Made by a program: the position numbers and the translations under genes
Origin: Chloroflexaceae bacterium
GTDB taxonomy: Bacteria; Chloroflexota; Chloroflexia; Chloroflexales; Chloroflexaceae
DNA length: 64,000 nucleotides
Direction of reading: 5' to 3'
Assembly (NCBI GenBank): GCA_025057155.1
Contig: JANWYD010000002.1
Span: 62,001 to 126,000 of the forward strand
Part shown: positions 25,600-36,136 of the stretch, piece after piece
Layout of the letters: every line of letters begins with the position of its first letter
Position numbering within the stretch: position 1 is the first letter of the stretch
The notes under the pieces: generated by a model
Seen by the model: only the letters and a program-made list of their open reading frames with translations
Databases searched by the model: none
Told to the model about the DNA's origin: nothing

Positions 25600-26463
25600 C
25601 TACGCTCCCTCGATATCCAGACCTATATCCAGGGCCGGCGCGCTGTGGGTTAGCGCGCCAACGCTGATAAAGTCCACGCCGCTGTCGGCAACCGCGCGGA
25701 TTGAATGCAAGTTGATGCCGCCGCTGGCCTCGGTGCGCGCCCGTCCGGCCACGGCGGCCACGGCAGCGCGGAGCTGTTCGGGGGACATATTGTCGAGCAG
25801 GATCAGGTCGGCGCCGGCCTCGGCGGCGATGGCGGCCTGTTCGACGCTCTCCACTTCCACCTCCACCCGCACCATCGGTCCCACCGCCGCCCGCGCCCGG
25901 CGCACCGCTTCAGCCAGGTCCACCCCTCGCGCTGCCAGAATGGCCAGGTGGTTGTCCTTGAGCATCACTCCGTCATACAGGCCAGAGCGGTGATTGACCC
26001 CGCCCCCGACGCGCACGGCGTACTTCTCCAGCGCCCGCAGTCCCGGCGTAGTCTTGCGCGTGTCGAGAATGCGCGCCCGGGCGCCTCGCACTGCCTCGAC
26101 GTAACTGGCGGTCAGGGTGGCGATGCCGCTCAGCCGCTGGAGGAAATTGAGGGCTACGCGCTCGCCGCTGAGGAGGCCACGGGCCGGGCCGGCAACGCTG
26201 GCCACGCGCTCCCCCGCCGATACCCGCGCGCCCTCAGCCGCCCGCGGTCGCAGCGTCAGGGCCGGGTCCACCAGGGCAAAGACGGCCGCCACCACCGGCA
26301 GTCCGCAGACCACTCCGGCCTGGCGGAAGACAAAGTGCGCCTCGGCCCGAGCGTCAGGAGGGATAACTGCCAGGGTCGTCAGGTCGCCCGTGCCGATATC
26401 CTCGTTTAGCGCGCGGACAACCACCTCACGGACGAGTTCGGGAGGAAGATCGATAGGATGCAT
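25600..26463 (-). CDS. nadC: Nicotinate-nucleotide pyrophosphorylase (quinolinate phosphoribosyltransferase)
   Basis: The 287-residue product converts quinolinate and PRPP to nicotinate mononucleotide, the third step of de novo NAD synthesis. Blocks seen: ALNEDIGTGDLTTLAV at the N-terminus, LNFLQRLSGIATLTASYVEAV, ILDTRKTTPGLRALEKYAVRVGGGVNHRSGLYDGVMLKDNH (substrate-binding Arg/Lys/His cluster), VEVEVESVEQA, ADLILLDNMSPEQLR and EASGGINLHSIRAVADSGVDFISVGALTHSAPALDIGLDI. The ATG at 26463 has CTGGAGATGT upstream; longer reading upstream enters a repeat. It is the last gene of nadA-nadB-nadC, separated from nadB by 300 bp holding a MITE-like element. Confidence 0.96.
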   Translation of the reverse strand: MHPIDLPPELVREVVVRALNEDIGTGDLTTLAVIPPDARAEAHFVFRQAGVVCGLPVVAAVFALVDPALTLRPRAAEGARVSAGERVASVAGPARGLLSGERVALNFLQRLSGIATLTASYVEAVRGARARILDTRKTTPGLRALEKYAVRVGGGVNHRSGLYDGVMLKDNHLAILAARGVDLAEAVRRARAAVGPMVRVEVEVESVEQAAIAAEAGADLILLDNMSPEQLRAAVAAVAGRARTEASGGINLHSIRAVADSGVDFISVGALTHSAPALDIGLDIEGA

Positions 26464-26561
26464 ACATCTCCAGTAGGGCCTGCGCCCTGGTTCAACGGTA
26501 TCCTCCGGGCGGGCGCAGGGCCGCCAGGGCTCCTCGCCCGCCTGGAGAGAGGGCAAAGCCC

Positions 26562-26763: not shown

Positions 26764-28413
26764 CTAATCAGCCGCATGCGCCCGCGCCGGCGGCGCGGCG
26801 ATGGTTGCCACCAGAAAGGGTTCCTGGCCCCGGACCTGGACCAGATGGGCCTGCCAGTGCTCACGGGGCTGGGGAAAGTCGGTGCGGAAGTGACCGCCCC
26901 GACTCTCTTCGCGCGCCAGCGCCCCGGCCACGATCAGCCGGGCGGTCAGCGCGGCGTTGACGGCGGTGAGACCGTCCGGGTCATCGGGAGCGGCCTGCCA
27001 GGGCCAGGCCGCCAGGCGCAGCGCTCCGGCGCGCAGCCCCTCGCCGTCGCGCAGCGGCCCGGCGGCGGCGCGCATTGTCGCCGCCAGAGCCTCGCGCCAG
27101 TTCGGCGCCGGGAACGAGCCAGTCTCGCCAGCAGCGATACGGGCGGGCGCCACCGCGGAAAGGGCGATCCTGCCGGAGTGACGCTCCAGGACGGCGGCGA
27201 TCCCGGCGCGCCGCCCGAAGACCAGGCACTCCAGCAGCGAGTTGGAGGCCAGACGATTGGCGCCGTGCACGCCGGTGCAGGCCACCTCGCCAGCAGCGAA
27301 CAGCCCCGGCAGGCTGGTGGCGCCATCCAGGTCGGTGCGCACGCCGCCCATCAGGTAGTGCGCCGCCGGGGCCACCGGGATGGGCGTAGTGGCCGGATCC
27401 AGCCCATCTTCGCGCAGACGGGCGCAGATCGTCGGGAAGCGGCTCTCGATCGTCGTCCGGGGCAGGTGGGTCAGGTCGAGCAGCACATGGTCACTGCCAG
27501 AGCGGCGCATAGCGGCATAGATGCCGCGGGTTACCACGTCGCGGGGCGCGAGTTCGGCGCGAGGATCGAAAGCGGGCATGAAACGTTCGCCGGCGAGCGT
27601 GCGGAGGAGGCCCCCCTCGCCACGGACGGCCTCGCTGATCAGGAAGCCCTGACCGGCGCGCGTGCGATAGACCGTGGGATGAAACTGCACGAACTCCAGA
27701 TCGGCCACCTCGGCCCCGGCGCGGTAGGCCATGGCGATGCCTTCGCCGAGAGCGACGGGCTGATTGCTGGTCAGACCATAGAGCGCGCCGGCGCCGCCAC
27801 TGGCGAGGATCGTCGCCGCGGCCAGCAGGCGATGCCAGTCCCCAGTCGGATCGCGCGCCAGCGCGCCGACGATCCGGCCCCCCTCGTCAAGCAGATCGGC
27901 GGCCTGCCACCCCTCCAGCAACGTGATCCGCGGATGGGCGCGGGCGCGGTCGATCAAGGCGGTCACCACCGCCAGGCCGGTCGCGTCGCCCACGTGCACA
28001 ATGCGGCGGGCCGAATGGCCACCTTCCAGTCCCAGGGCGAAGCGTCCGGGGGCCACGCGCTCGAAGGGCACGCCAGCGGCGGCCAGTTCGCGCATCAACG
28101 CCGGCGCGGCGTAGGCCAGGGCCGCCACGGCCTCGGCGTCGGAGAGGCCGGCGCCGGCTGCCAGCGTATCGGCGATGTGGGCGCGGGGCGAATCGGCGGC
28201 GTCGAGGGCCGCGGCGATGCCGCCCTGGGCCCAGGCTGAATTACTCTCGGGCAGGGCGCCGCGGGCCAGCACCAGCACCTCGGTGTACTCGGCGGCCGCC
28301 AGGGCCGCCGTCAGGCCGGCGGCCCCGGCGCCGATCACCAGCACGCCGGTGGTTGTTGTTGTAGCCGCGGGCCATGCCGTCAGGGCGAAGCGAGGAGCGG
28401 GTATCGGTTTCAT
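26764..28413 (-). CDS. nadB: L-aspartate oxidase
   Basis: The 549-residue flavoprotein oxidises L-aspartate to iminoaspartate for NadA. TTGVLVIGAGAAGLTAALAAAE is the FAD Rossmann motif (residues about 20-40). ALPESNSAWAQGGIAAALDAADSPRAHIADTL, EGGHSARRIVHVGDATGLAVV, ILASGGAGALYGLTSNQPVALGEGIAMAYRAGAEVADLEFVQFHPT, EAVRGEGGLLRT and TSLPGLFAAGEVACTGVHGANRLASNSLLECLVFGRRAG are all NadB/fumarate-reductase-family blocks with the catalytic Arg/His set. Length is about 10-20 residues over the typical 535. The ATG at 28413 was chosen because the conserved region begins soon after; sequence further upstream is not conserved-looking. Gap to nadA is 131 bp. Confidence 0.95.
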   Translation of the reverse strand: MKPIPAPRFALTAWPAATTTTTGVLVIGAGAAGLTAALAAAEYTEVLVLARGALPESNSAWAQGGIAAALDAADSPRAHIADTLAAGAGLSDAEAVAALAYAAPALMRELAAAGVPFERVAPGRFALGLEGGHSARRIVHVGDATGLAVVTALIDRARAHPRITLLEGWQAADLLDEGGRIVGALARDPTGDWHRLLAAATILASGGAGALYGLTSNQPVALGEGIAMAYRAGAEVADLEFVQFHPTVYRTRAGQGFLISEAVRGEGGLLRTLAGERFMPAFDPRAELAPRDVVTRGIYAAMRRSGSDHVLLDLTHLPRTTIESRFPTICARLREDGLDPATTPIPVAPAAHYLMGGVRTDLDGATSLPGLFAAGEVACTGVHGANRLASNSLLECLVFGRRAGIAAVLERHSGRIALSAVAPARIAAGETGSFPAPNWREALAATMRAAAGPLRDGEGLRAGALRLAAWPWQAAPDDPDGLTAVNAALTARLIVAGALAREESRGGHFRTDFPQPREHWQAHLVQVRGQEPFLVATIAAPPARAHAAD

Positions 28414-28544: not shown

Positions 28545-29516
28545 TTAAAGGGCGATCATCCGCTCGATGGCCGTGCGGGCGCGGGCGGCCAGATCAGGGG
28601 GCACGGTCACCACGTGGGTCAGGTCGCGCAGACTATTGCGCACCTTCTCCAGCGTGATCATCTTCATGTACTTGCAACTGATCGACTCATCAACCGGCAA
28701 AAACTGCTTCTCGGGATTGGCCTTGCGCATGCGGTGCAGCACGCCGATCTCGGTGGCGACGACGAAACGGGAGGCGCTGCTGCTGGCCGCATGGCGGATC
28801 ATGCCCTCGGTCGAGAGAATATGGGCGCCCCGGGGATCGAGCTTGCCGCTCGCCAGATAGTGCATGGCGCTGCTCACACAGCCGCACTCAGGGTGGATCA
28901 GCAACTCGGCGTCGGGCATGGCGGCGCGCTGGCGCTCGACCATCGCCGGGCGGATGGCGGCGTGCACGTGGCACTCCCCGGCCCAGATGTGCATGTGCCG
29001 GCCGGTAACCTGCCGCAGGTAGCTCCCCAGAAACATATCGGGAAGAAAGAGGATCTCTTTGTCTTCGGGAATGGCTCGAATGACCCGCTCGGCGTTGCCT
29101 GAGGTGCAACAGTAGTCGCTCTCGGCCTTGACCTCCGCAGTCGTATTGACGTAGCTCACCACCACCGCGCCGGGATGCTCGGCCTTCCAGGCGCGCAGTT
29201 GCTCGGCGGTGATCGAGGCCGCCAGCGAACACCCCGCCTCGGGGTCGGGGATCAGCACGGTCTTCTCCGGCGAGAGGATGGCGGCGGTTTCGGCCATAAA
29301 ATGCACGCCGCAGACGACCAGCACGGGGGCGTCGCTGCGGGCGGCAAACTGGGCCATGCCCAGCGAATCGCCGACATAATCCGCCAGATCCTGGATCTCG
29401 CCGTACTCGTAGTTATGGGCCAGGATCACCGCATTGCGCCGGGCGCGCAGGGCATTGATCTCCTCGACCAGGGCCGCGGCTTCCTCCGGGGCGGTGTGGG
29501 TGAGCGCCATGCTCAT
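28545..29516 (-). CDS. nadA: Quinolinate synthase
   Basis: The 323-residue [4Fe-4S] enzyme condenses iminoaspartate with dihydroxyacetone phosphate to quinolinate. Cluster Cys are seen in VVCGVHFMAETAAIL (near residue 90), DYCCTSGNAERVI and HPECGCVSSAMHY, matching the three-ligand pattern of the family. AVILAHNYEYGEIQDLADYVGDSLGMAQFAA and EDKEILFLPDMFLGSYL are further NadA blocks. The ATG at 29516 is preceded by GAGGAGG with 6-nt spacing; a TTG two codons earlier is less likely. It leads nadA-nadB-nadC. The upstream 190 bp carry a near-consensus promoter and an array of dyads (29531-29707), so expression is probably controlled by an NAD-responsive repressor. Confidence 0.96.
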   Translation of the reverse strand: MSMALTHTAPEEAAALVEEINALRARRNAVILAHNYEYGEIQDLADYVGDSLGMAQFAARSDAPVLVVCGVHFMAETAAILSPEKTVLIPDPEAGCSLAASITAEQLRAWKAEHPGAVVVSYVNTTAEVKAESDYCCTSGNAERVIRAIPEDKEILFLPDMFLGSYLRQVTGRHMHIWAGECHVHAAIRPAMVERQRAAMPDAELLIHPECGCVSSAMHYLASGKLDPRGAHILSTEGMIRHAASSSASRFVVATEIGVLHRMRKANPEKQFLPVDESISCKYMKMITLEKVRNSLRDLTHVVTVPPDLAARARTAIERMIAL

Positions 29517-29530
29517 AGACAACCTCCTCT

Positions 29531-29556
29531 ATAACCCAGAGTTAACGCAGGGTTAT
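29531..29556 (-). promoter_or_regulatory. 26-bp imperfect dyad before the nadA ribosome-binding site
   Basis: ATAACCC (29531-29537) and GGGTTAT (29550-29556) flank a GTTAAC centre; 22 of 26 positions are self-complementary. It directly precedes the GAGGAGG site and could occlude translation initiation or be a fourth regulatory dyad. Confidence 0.45.
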
Positions 29557-29576
29557 TAGTGTAAAAATAACACTAA
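29556..29576 (-). promoter_or_regulatory. NAD-operon operator-like dyad 1
   Basis: TTAGTGT-N7-ACACTAA, a perfect 7+7 dyad of 21 bp in the nadA leader. Centre at 29566. Confidence 0.65.
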
Positions 29577-29607
29577 ATGCGTCCGGTAAAGAGGCCGAGC
29601 GACCGGA

Positions 29608-29628
29608 TTTGTGTCTTTTTGACACTAA
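29608..29628 (-). promoter_or_regulatory. NAD-operon operator-like dyad 2
   Basis: TTTGTGTC-N5-GACACTAA, 21 bp, sharing the ACACTAA half with dyad 1; centre at 29618, 52 bp from dyad 1. It is enclosed by a separate inverted repeat (29592-29604 and 29648-29660). Confidence 0.65.
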
Positions 29629-29658
29629 CTTTGCCTGGAAAAAAAGTGGCCGCTCGGC

Positions 29659-29679
29659 CTGTTGTGAAATTGACACTTA
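29659..29679 (-). promoter_or_regulatory. NAD-operon operator-like dyad 3 (half site)
   Basis: TTGTG-n4-TGACACTTA keeps the GACACT half seen in dyad 2; centre near 29669, 51 bp from dyad 2. It overlaps the predicted transcription start just after the -10 box. The left half is degenerate. Confidence 0.45.
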
Positions 29680-29707
29680 GTATACGACGCAGGTCAGGAG
29701 TTGTCAA
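29679..29707 (-). promoter_or_regulatory. nadA: Near-consensus sigma70-type promoter of nadA
   Basis: On the minus strand TTGACA (29707-29702), a 17-nt spacer, then TATACT (29684-29679). It is the best -35/-10 pair I found in the window. Predicted start near 29672 gives a leader of about 156 nt containing dyads 1 and 2. Confidence 0.7.
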
Positions 29708-30025
29708 TAGCGGTTTCGTGTTCCAACACGGCTCTTGCAACCTCTCTGCGGCAGTGCCCGGACCCCGGGTTTTTCGGCGGGTTTGGCCGCGCAGCCGCCA
29801 ACACTAAGAAAAAATGGGGTTTGCGCCAGCCCTGGCGCGCCACCCGGGCCTGCGCCATTTCCTCGGGTCAGGTCCCGACCCGACCTGCGGGTTTCTGGAC
29901 GGCGTTGGCGACGCCGCCGACATTATTGTGATGGGGCGGCTACGCCGCCCTGTGACCCGCCGACGTTGCATCAACTCTGCGTGCCGCCCGCGCCCCCAGG
30001 AGGTGACGGCGGTGCGAACCACGGC
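29708..30025. other. Non-coding region between nadA promoter and Uma2 pseudogene
   Basis: No credible gene. Contains short GC hairpins, for instance GGGCGGC-TAC-GCCGCCC near 29936-29952, of the type also seen at about 44010-44027, and several Gly/Pro-coding-like but unconserved frames. Confidence 0.5.
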
Positions 30026-33805: not shown

Positions 33806-36136
33806 ATGCAGGATCTCACACCACTACAGCAGTACGCCGTATGGACGGTGCTCTTCATCTCCATCTTCGGCATCGCCTACGCCTTTTACCTGAGGAGCAT
33901 GATCCTCGCTCAGGACAAGGGCACGACGAAGATGCAGGAGGTCTGGGGGTTCATCAAGTCGGGCGCCAATGCGTATCTCAGCCAGCAGTTCCGTACCATT
34001 TCCATCCTGATCGTAATCCTCACGTTCGTGCTCGGCGCGAGTGTGTTCATTATCCCGCCGACGCGCGAAGCAATCGAGCACTTCGGCAGCCCCGAGGCCG
34101 CTACGCTGTGGGTGGCCATCGGGCGGGCCATCGCCTTCCTGATGGGGTCGCTCTTCTCCTACACTGTAGGCTTCGTGGGCATGAACGTGGCGGTTGAGGG
34201 CAACGTGCGCGTGGCCGCCGCCTCACGGAAGGGCTACAACCCGGCGATGCAGATCGCCTACCGCGCCGGCTCGGTGACGGGTATGCTCACCGTGGGTCTG
34301 GGGCTCCTGGGCGGCACGTTGATCTTCATGGTCTTCGGCATCGCGGCTCCCGACGCGCTGCTGGGCTTCGGCTTCGGCGGCTCGCTGATCGCGCTGTTTA
34401 TGCGCGTGGGCGGCGGCATCTACACCAAGGCCGCCGATGTCGGCGCTGACCTGGTGGGCAAGGTTGAGGCAGGCATTCCCGAGGACGATCCCCGCAACGC
34501 CGCGGTGATCGCCGACCTGGTGGGCGATAACGTGGGCGACTGCGCCGGTATGGCCGCCGACGTGTTCGAGAGCTTCGAGGTGACCCTGGTCTCGGCGTTG
34601 ATCCTCGGTCTGGTGCTGGGCGATGCCGTAGCCGGGACGATTGGCGACGGGAACTACGATCTGCGCTTCATTATCTTCCCCCTGGTGCTGCGGGCCATTG
34701 GCGTGGTCGCCTCGGTGATCGGCAACCTGTTCGTGACCACCGATGAGCGCCGCCGCAATGCCATGGCGGCCATGAACCGCGGCTTCTATATCGCTGCGGG
34801 CCTGGCGATCGCCGGCTGCGTGGCCGCGACGGCGGTGTTTATGCGCGAGCCGAACGGCGCGATTGACTGGCGCCCCCTCTGGGCGACCGTTGCCGGTGTG
34901 GCCCTGGCCATCGTGCTCGACAAGCTGACCGAGTACTTCACCAGCACCCACTACAATCCGGTGAAGGAAGTGTCGCGCTCCTCGCAGAGCGGCGCGGCCA
35001 CCAATATCCTCTCCGGTCTGGCGCTGGGCATGGAGTCGAGCGTCTGGGCCATCCTGGTGATCTGTGGCTCCATCCTCACCTCGGTGATCATCTTCAGCGG
35101 CTATTCGGCCGATCCGGTGGTGACCTTCACGGCCATGCTCTATGGCGTCTCGCTCACCGGCATTGGCATGCTCCTGCTCACCGGCAATACGATCTCGATG
35201 GACAGCTTCGGCCCCATCTCCGACAATGCCAATGGCATCGGCGAGATGGCCGGGCTGGACAAGAATGCTCGCAACGTGATGGACGACCTGGACGCGGTGG
35301 GCAATACGACCAAGGCGGTGACGAAGGGTATTGCCATTGGTTCGGCGGTGATCGCCGCGGTGGCGCTCTACGGCTCCTACCTCACCGACGTGAACAAGGT
35401 GCAGCAACAGTTGATCGAGGCGGGCGCCCAGGGCGTGCAGTTGCTCACCGGCATCAACGTCTCAGCGCCGATCGTCTTCATCGGCCTGCTCATCGGCGGG
35501 GCCGTGCCCTTCCTGTTCTCCTCGCTCACCATTCGCGCCGTGTCCCGCGCCGCCTCGCAGATCGTCGCCGAGGTGCGCCGGCAGTTCCGCATCCCCGGCC
35601 TGATGGAAGGCAAGGTACAGCCTGACTACGCCCGCGCGGTGACCATCAGCACCGCCGCGGCGCAGAAGGAGCTGATCAGCCTGGGCATTATCGCGGTGAT
35701 GGTCCCCATCCTGGTGGGCTTCACCCTCGGGGTTGAGGCGCTCGGCGGCTTCCTGGCCGGCATTATCCTCTCGGGCCAGTTGATGGCCGTGTTCCAGGCC
35801 AACGCTGGCGGCGCCTGGGATAACGCCAAGAAGTACATCGAGGAAGGCAACTTCGGCGGCAAGCACAGCGACCCGCATAAGGCCGCCGTGGTTGGCGACA
35901 CCGTCGGCGACCCGCTTAAGGACACCGCCGGTCCGGCCCTGAACCCGATGATCAAGGTGATCAACCTGGTGGCCCTGATCATCGCCCCGATGGTGGTGAC
36001 GATCAATCCCGGCAGCCCTGGAGTGATTATCGCCATGATCATCTGCGCCGTGGCGCTGTTCTGGGCGATCTGGCAGAGCAAGCGCGAGGCCCAGTCGCTG
36101 GTTGAGCCGACCAAGGCCCCCGCCGGGGCTGACTAG
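33806..36136 (+). CDS. hppA: K+-independent, membrane-bound proton-pumping pyrophosphatase
   Basis: The 776-residue membrane protein hydrolyses pyrophosphate and pumps H+. The substrate-site signature [46 protein letters not shown] is at about 211-256, and DNAKKYIE and [22 protein letters not shown] at the C-terminus are also invariant Mg-PPi blocks. [10 protein letters not shown] (about 500) has Lys where K+-dependent enzymes have Ala, so this is the K+-independent type by the established rule. About 16 membrane segments are seen, as expected. The ATG follows AAGGAG. An 18-bp perfect-stem terminator follows. Such pumps use PPi from biosynthesis, common in phototrophs and in energy-limited bacteria. 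Confidence 0.96.

Follow-up and report, generated by a model that had tools for sequence, protein, structure and literature searches.

Predicted NrtR operators in the Chloroflexaceae nadABC leader and T-tracts placed at a nearly fixed distance before them

What would a repressor do at sites lying well downstream of the promoter that it controls? The question is raised by the nadA promoter of a Chloroflexaceae bacterium. Within the window (the whole 64,000-nucleotide stretch of DNA that was analyzed), a sequence-only reading had described three operator-like dyads about 52 bp apart and had proposed that a repressor, perhaps a new one, binds them cooperatively on one side of the helix and loops the DNA. 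In the direction of transcription, on the minus strand, the order is O3 (centre 29669), O2 (29618), O1 (29566), AGGAGG and the nadA ATG, with nadB and nadC downstream of nadA and all genes in one direction. The features are as follows.

29702..29707, minus strand: -35 box TTGACA of the nadABC promoter (from sequence)
29679..29684, minus strand: -10 box TATACT of the nadABC promoter (from sequence)
29659..29679, minus strand: O3, predicted NrtR operator of degenerate sequence, adjoining the -10 box, TAAGTGTCAATTTCACAACAG (4/14 mismatches)
29648..29659, minus strand: element A, mini-hairpin GGCC-GAGC-GGCC (from sequence and hairpin scan)
29639..29645, minus strand: T7 tract, beginning 17 nt ahead of the first base of O2 (from sequence)
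29608..29628, minus strand: O2, predicted NrtR operator, TTAGTGTCAAAAAGACACAAA (1/14 mismatches)
29593..29604, minus strand: element B, GGTCGCTCGGCC, complementary to element A (duplex z, -8.0)
29588..29592, minus strand: TCTTT, beginning 16 nt ahead of the first base of O1; its T content is below the threshold of the T-tract test
29556..29576, minus strand: O1, strongest predicted NrtR operator, TTAGTGTTATTTTTACACTAA (perfect arms)
28545..29516, minus strand: nadA, quinolinate synthase; ATG at 29516, preceded by AGGAGG
26764..28413, minus strand: nadB, L-aspartate oxidase; probable start at 28413
25600..26466, minus strand: nadC, quinolinate phosphoribosyltransferase

Elsewhere in the window, a Uma2-like gene (PF05685; 30026-30715, minus strand) is broken by a stop codon in its own frame, and a membrane-bound inorganic pyrophosphatase (PF03030) is encoded at 33806-36136 on the plus strand.

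The dyad array is real. The promoter that had been claimed, TTGACA-N17-TATACT on the minus strand from 29707 to 29679, was found (shuffle mean, 0.1), as were O1, with its perfect arms, O2, with a single mismatch in 14, and the centre spacings of 51 and 52 bp. What had been called a half-site at 29669 proved to be a degenerate full dyad, O3, with 4/14 mismatches. We scored the window with an independent matrix built from 55 distinct nrtR, pncA and pncB sites of other genera, with the window's genus and all nadA sites excluded (these training sites had been collected using the window's consensus). O1, O2 and O3 ranked first to third in the window, at 37.5, 28.1 and 8.4, respectively; the best score per simulated window averaged 1.7 and reached 13.4 at most (60 Markov-1 windows). 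O1 and O2 are therefore individually above chance, whereas O3, scoring below the top of the luckiest simulated window, is not significant alone and rests on its position and conservation. Throughout the 5.13 Mb of the window's own genome, which is in 189 contigs, TTAGTGT-N7-ACACTAA occurs three times with at most one mismatch and six times with at most two, against 0.08 and 2.1 sites, respectively, expected from base composition. At three or fewer mismatches, the 15 sites found fall below the 62 of a reversed-pattern control, so only the better-matching sites are informative.

The genes adjoining the sites are more telling than the site counts. Two of the six own-genome sites lie at nadA, and one each precedes a pncA-like gene (isochorismatase family, named from family and context, with no NCBIfam model above cutoff), pncB (nicotinate phosphoribosyltransferase) and nrtR (NUDIX and NrtR_WHD domains); good sites before these three genes are what came of the genome scan and search for a nearby regulator gene that the sequence-only reading had recommended. 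The sixth, at C9:226293 (L008, 4001-4021), has two mismatches and a score of 19.8 and lies upstream of an HNH endonuclease gene, some 300 nt away. Across the family, sites scoring at least 12 were found in 29/30 upstreams of nrtR (best 30 of 39 genomes with a match), 27/30 of pncA (best 30 of 38), 26/30 of pncB (best 30 of 32) and 36/36 of nadA, one of the last being from another family (G056). This recurrence bears out the proposal that the nadA promoter carries conserved operators of an NAD regulon. The motif was not, as had been thought, unmatched or the mark of a new regulator, but belongs to an NrtR regulon with lineage-specific half-sites: judged from sequence, (W)TAGTGT-N7-ACACTA(W), at nrtR, pncA, pncB and nadABC, is almost certainly the regulon motif, O1 and O2 are very probably NrtR operators, and O3 is probably one as well.

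Scanned with a matrix that included the window's sites, the other families of the order carry the motif before nrtR in 10 of 11 loci (L153-L161, L165 and L166; scores of 19-32, with none at L161), while outside the order 14 loci around nadA (L130-L142, L148) gave no site of at least 7 and weak sites (7.0-14.1) precede nrtR-like genes in five of seven (L149-L152, L162-L164). Two divergent nadA-like stretches inside the order (L167, L168) gave no site. In eight genomes of the window's family (G004, G005, G019-G023, G030), nrtR and pncA are no more than 4 kb apart. nrtR adjoins nadA in seven genomes of family f13, in which the motif of the window's family was not found; at these loci (L130-L136), six of the seven nrtR upstreams shown share a promoter-like TTGAC(A/G)GT...GGTAC...GTGACTATTAT, which may hold another operator.

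NrtR is a Nudix-related repressor of NAD genes, whose regulons were reportedly described by Rodionov et al. in 2008. The own-genome protein joins an N-terminal Nudix domain (PF00293, 4.7e-24) to a C-terminal NrtR winged helix (PF21906, 1.4e-21) and matches 3gz5 over its full length (3.3e-46); its best NCBIfam model, an ADPR-responsive repressor, gave 191.5 bits, under the cutoff of 400. The gene (L007, C5:206483-214503; gene end 3255, minus strand) encodes a complete Nudix signature. GX5EX7REUXEEXGU is intact in 44 of 55 NrtR proteins; the figure is 31/31 in the window's family and 9/11 in families f2-f4, where the exceptions are second copies in G055 and G070. The signature is impaired in 3gz5, and impairment is reported for NAD-regulating NrtRs in the available text of PMC4666351; it is a usual, not a defining, trait of such regulators and one that the own-genome protein does not show. 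If its Nudix site is as catalytically complete as it looks, the repressor might in addition break down its own signal.

The system resembles the NrtR regulons of M. smegmatis (MsNrtR, PMC6800001) and S. oneidensis (NrtR, PDB 3gz5), as far as these are covered by the accessible text, in having a Nudix plus NrtR winged-helix protein and palindromic operators at the NAD genes and the regulator's own gene; a lineage-specific motif is itself typical. Unlike the mycobacterial motif, GTTTTCGA-N7-TCGAAAAC in the accessible part of PMC6800001, the one here is TAGTGT-N7-ACACTA. Known NrtR regulons also differ from this one in its intact Nudix box and in the coupling of its downstream nadA operators to T-tracts and hairpins. 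Bacteroides AraR, of the NrtR family, has 21-bp operators in tandem, separated by 3 bp or 42 nt, which the 22- to 24-bp centre spacing of some nadA arrays resembles; AraR, however, is a sugar regulator, and terminator elements go unmentioned in the available part of PMC4666351. NadQ has a homologous DNA-binding domain and controls nadABC, but its N-terminal domain and its consensus, ttATRCTCannntGAGYATaa, differ (PMC5343134, in the portion accessible). A NadQ regulon was rejected, as by direct reading the window's dyads do not match ATRCTCannntGAGYAT. Among the papers listed, our literature search found no description of the motif or of an NrtR regulon in Chloroflexota, and no repressor-terminator composite; RegPrecise has a Chloroflexi collection, according to the accessible text of PMC3840689, so the plain NrtR regulon may already figure there. 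Control of NAD genes by NrtR is known in itself, and the new part would be an operator-terminator module whose function we infer.

Operator architecture separates nadA from the rest of the regulon. The single operator of the other genes is centred 9-11 nt past the last base of the -10 box (nrtR, 25/26; pncA, 26/26; pncB, 25/26; best 30 loci each, with no promoter found for 4 of the 82 single-site operators), a position from which it would act by simple occlusion of the start. The nadA set comprised 36 of the 41 family genomes plus G056; G017 enters its counts only from the hairpin and U-tract scan on, where there are 37 upstreams. Left out were G001 and G034, where nadA found no match, and three genomes with partial matches (G002, G010 and G029); contig ends cut some upstreams to less than 300 nt. 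A TTGACA-N16-18-TATxxT promoter with at most two mismatches is present in 35/36 nadA upstreams, and at least two sites (score of at least 5, within 300 nt) in 34/36, against 0/90 for the other genes (best 30 per gene) and a rate of 0.0075 in shuffled upstreams; these counts, like those that follow, ignore kinship and are inflated by relatedness and low-GC tracts. The promoter-side nadA site has a lower score (2.6-7.3 in the window's genus and as high as 20.5 in others) and sits at the position of the nrtR, pncA and pncB operators or over the -35 box. The strong sites mostly lie 57-82 and 112-143 nt past the -10 box, with O1 the strongest in most genomes; in the Chloroflexus genus (g4, seven genomes), by contrast, the nadA sites fall at -29 and +25. 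Could O1 and O2 serve promoters of their own? This was ruled out: no promoter reaches 10/12 matches at any of 36 O1 and 20 O2 sites, whereas 76 of the 82 single-site operators (best 30 loci per gene) have one. Judged from sequence, O1 and O2 are strong predicted operators far downstream of the start and lack promoters of their own, as expected under roadblock repression. Two nadA leaders (L145 and L147, of G023 and G022) carry two operator pairs, with partners 23-24 bp apart and the pairs about 104 bp apart, and a 7-bp hairpin with a U-tract before the second pair.

The sequence-only reading had overlooked what lies between the operators, which in the window is GGCC-GAGC-GGCC-AC-T7 and then GGTCGCTCGGCC-TCTTT. 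Among distal operators (the test excludes those without a promoter found or centred less than 40 nt past the -10 box, which removes genera g4, g7 and g17), a T-tract begins 14-19 nt before 45 of 50, in 15/15 genera; shuffling gave 892/10000, and neighbouring offsets gave 4, 0 and 3 of 50. Of the five operators that lack one, four are the O1 sites of four genomes in the window's genus, the window's own included (TCTTT), and the fifth is O2 in G016; in the window, then, O2 fits the rule and O1 fits it only loosely. A local hairpin and U-tract stand no more than 40 nt before 34/97 nadA operators, and before 27/60 of the non-first ones (37 upstreams), compared with 3/82 single-site operators (best 30 loci per gene), 78/1800 random places and 343/6000 shuffles. 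The U-tract begins 15-18 nt before the operator in 31 of these 34 cases, one of them the promoter-side site of G032; for the remaining three hairpins the distance was taken to the second member of a tandem operator pair. Local GC hairpins precede 30 of the 50 distal operators. Their stems are mostly of 4 bp, and a terminator scan requiring five pairs found none on the window's minus strand. The exact pattern T4-N6-16-strict operator occurs in 15/41 family genomes (reversed control, 0), in three of which (G019, G022 and G023) the Ts lie inside a neighbouring operator; all places among the matches listed are just upstream of nadA, and the own genome has no match.

The stems vary yet stay paired (GGCC-GCAA-GGCC, GATCACC-TTGC-GGTGATT and others). 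Pairing between elements A and B is strong in genera g1, g5, g15 and g16 and in one of two g18 genomes, with duplex z values down to -8.0, and own pairs beat most between-genus swaps; it is less clear in g3 and g6 and absent or unspecific in g2, g9, g12, g14 and g26. The window's leader RNA folds better than 200/200 shuffles (z, -5.1). Leaders in the Chloroflexus genus are short and lack the hairpin and T-tract elements. That the operators themselves act as RNA hairpins was ruled out, since pairing at seven arm positions is within 0.01 of that of independent half-sites, the exception being the outermost position (0.54 versus 0.47).

Bacterial RNA polymerase extends some 15-18 bp past its active centre. 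The nearly fixed distance from T-tract to operator suggests stopping at built-in terminators rather than DNA looping, and we lean towards the view that NrtR also serves as an elongation roadblock, holding polymerase on weak built-in terminators. NrtR on O3 would hinder initiation, and NrtR on O2 and O1 would block elongating polymerase, which would halt when the weak hairpin or the A:B stem had just formed, its active centre then lying roughly over the U-tract; the hairpin would then bar backtracking, and the stall would pass into termination. Once an effector (ADP-ribose or NAD, by analogy with what the accessible text of PMC4666351 reports) had released NrtR, the hairpins alone would be too weak to stop transcription, and nadABC would be made. 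The spacing of about 52 bp would be the length of one operator-hairpin-U-tract module. More tentatively, this may be a repressor-gated attenuation, in which the bound repressor, at a fixed stand-off, makes weak intrinsic terminators work and so would control both initiation (O3) and termination (O2 and O1). Sites within the transcribed region are also a feature of roadblock repression by LacI, PurR, CcpA, CodY and C.Kpn2I, but release there is ascribed, in the accessible portions of the sources, to Mfd or possibly Rho, whereas here terminator-like elements precede the sites (PMC10310618, PMC4132739, PMC6237814). The word "intrinsic" is absent from the roadblock review PMC10310618. The C.Kpn2I roadblock, at a site 20 bp from the start, yields an RNA of about 20 nt, a length that does not in itself show a stand-off of 15-18 nt (PMC6237814, available text).

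How do other accounts fare? That a protein different from NrtR, be it NiaR, NadR, NadQ or a new regulator, binds the dyads is most improbable, given that the motif abuts nrtR's own promoter and jointly marks nrtR, pncA, pncB and nadA, and that the NadQ consensus differs (PMC5343134, accessible portion). We also think it improbable that NrtR binds cooperatively and loops the DNA from one face, with the hairpins and T-tracts incidental or the T-tracts acting as DNA bends. Multi-site arrays do occur only at nadA (34/36 versus 0/90, best 30 per gene), the 50- to 53-bp spacing in the window's genus comes near five helical turns, and the related AraR has tandem sites, 3 bp or 42 nt apart (PMC4666351, available text). 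Relatives nevertheless conserve the dyads without the spacing that the sequence-only reading had expected to be kept with them: adjacent operators are 50-53 bp apart in the window's genus, but values elsewhere include 22-24, 39, 48-61, 89-92 and 104 bp. Nor is there a common phase between genera (Rayleigh p, 0.44-0.99 at periods of 10-11.3, on genus averages entered by hand, which could blur phase), so same-face looping was not upheld and helical phasing as a general rule is unsupported. Looping would also leave unexplained both the constant distance from T-tract to operator and hairpin stems that change in sequence yet stay paired.

The leader might instead be a stand-alone RNA attenuator, its A:B stem or mini-hairpins terminating transcription or sensing a metabolite without NrtR, which would act on initiation only. 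The strong A:B pairing in g1, g5, g15, g16 and one g18 genome, and a leader fold that no shuffle of 200 matched, speak for this reading, but we consider it unlikely: pairing is absent or unspecific in five genera (g2, g9, g12, g14 and g26), the window's leader offers nothing but GTG-started ORFs (44, 27 and 5 codons), among which no leader peptide preceded by a ribosome site was seen, and action independent of NrtR gives no reason for a fixed operator distance. Rfam covariance models gave no match at E<=1 in window positions 29400-29900, by which an NAD riboswitch or other Rfam leader RNA was rejected. Finally, the sites may be redundant and additive, or may raise the local repressor concentration at a weak promoter operator, with the T-tracts reflecting shared ancestry only. 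O1 outscores the other sites in most genomes and the nadA leaders are all related, as this account would have it; it too strikes us as improbable, because the T-tract distance stays constant while spacer lengths, stems and the number of operators differ among 15 genera.

If true, the roadblock reading would make the nadABC leader a natural roadblock-terminator, in tandem and kept across 15 genera, and would provide for tight roadblocking without Mfd or Rho. The family itself supplies natural test variants, with the short Chloroflexus leader, local hairpins in some genera and a long-range stem elsewhere. Moreover, with an NrtR clade that keeps the whole Nudix signature, effector hydrolysis by an NAD repressor becomes testable.
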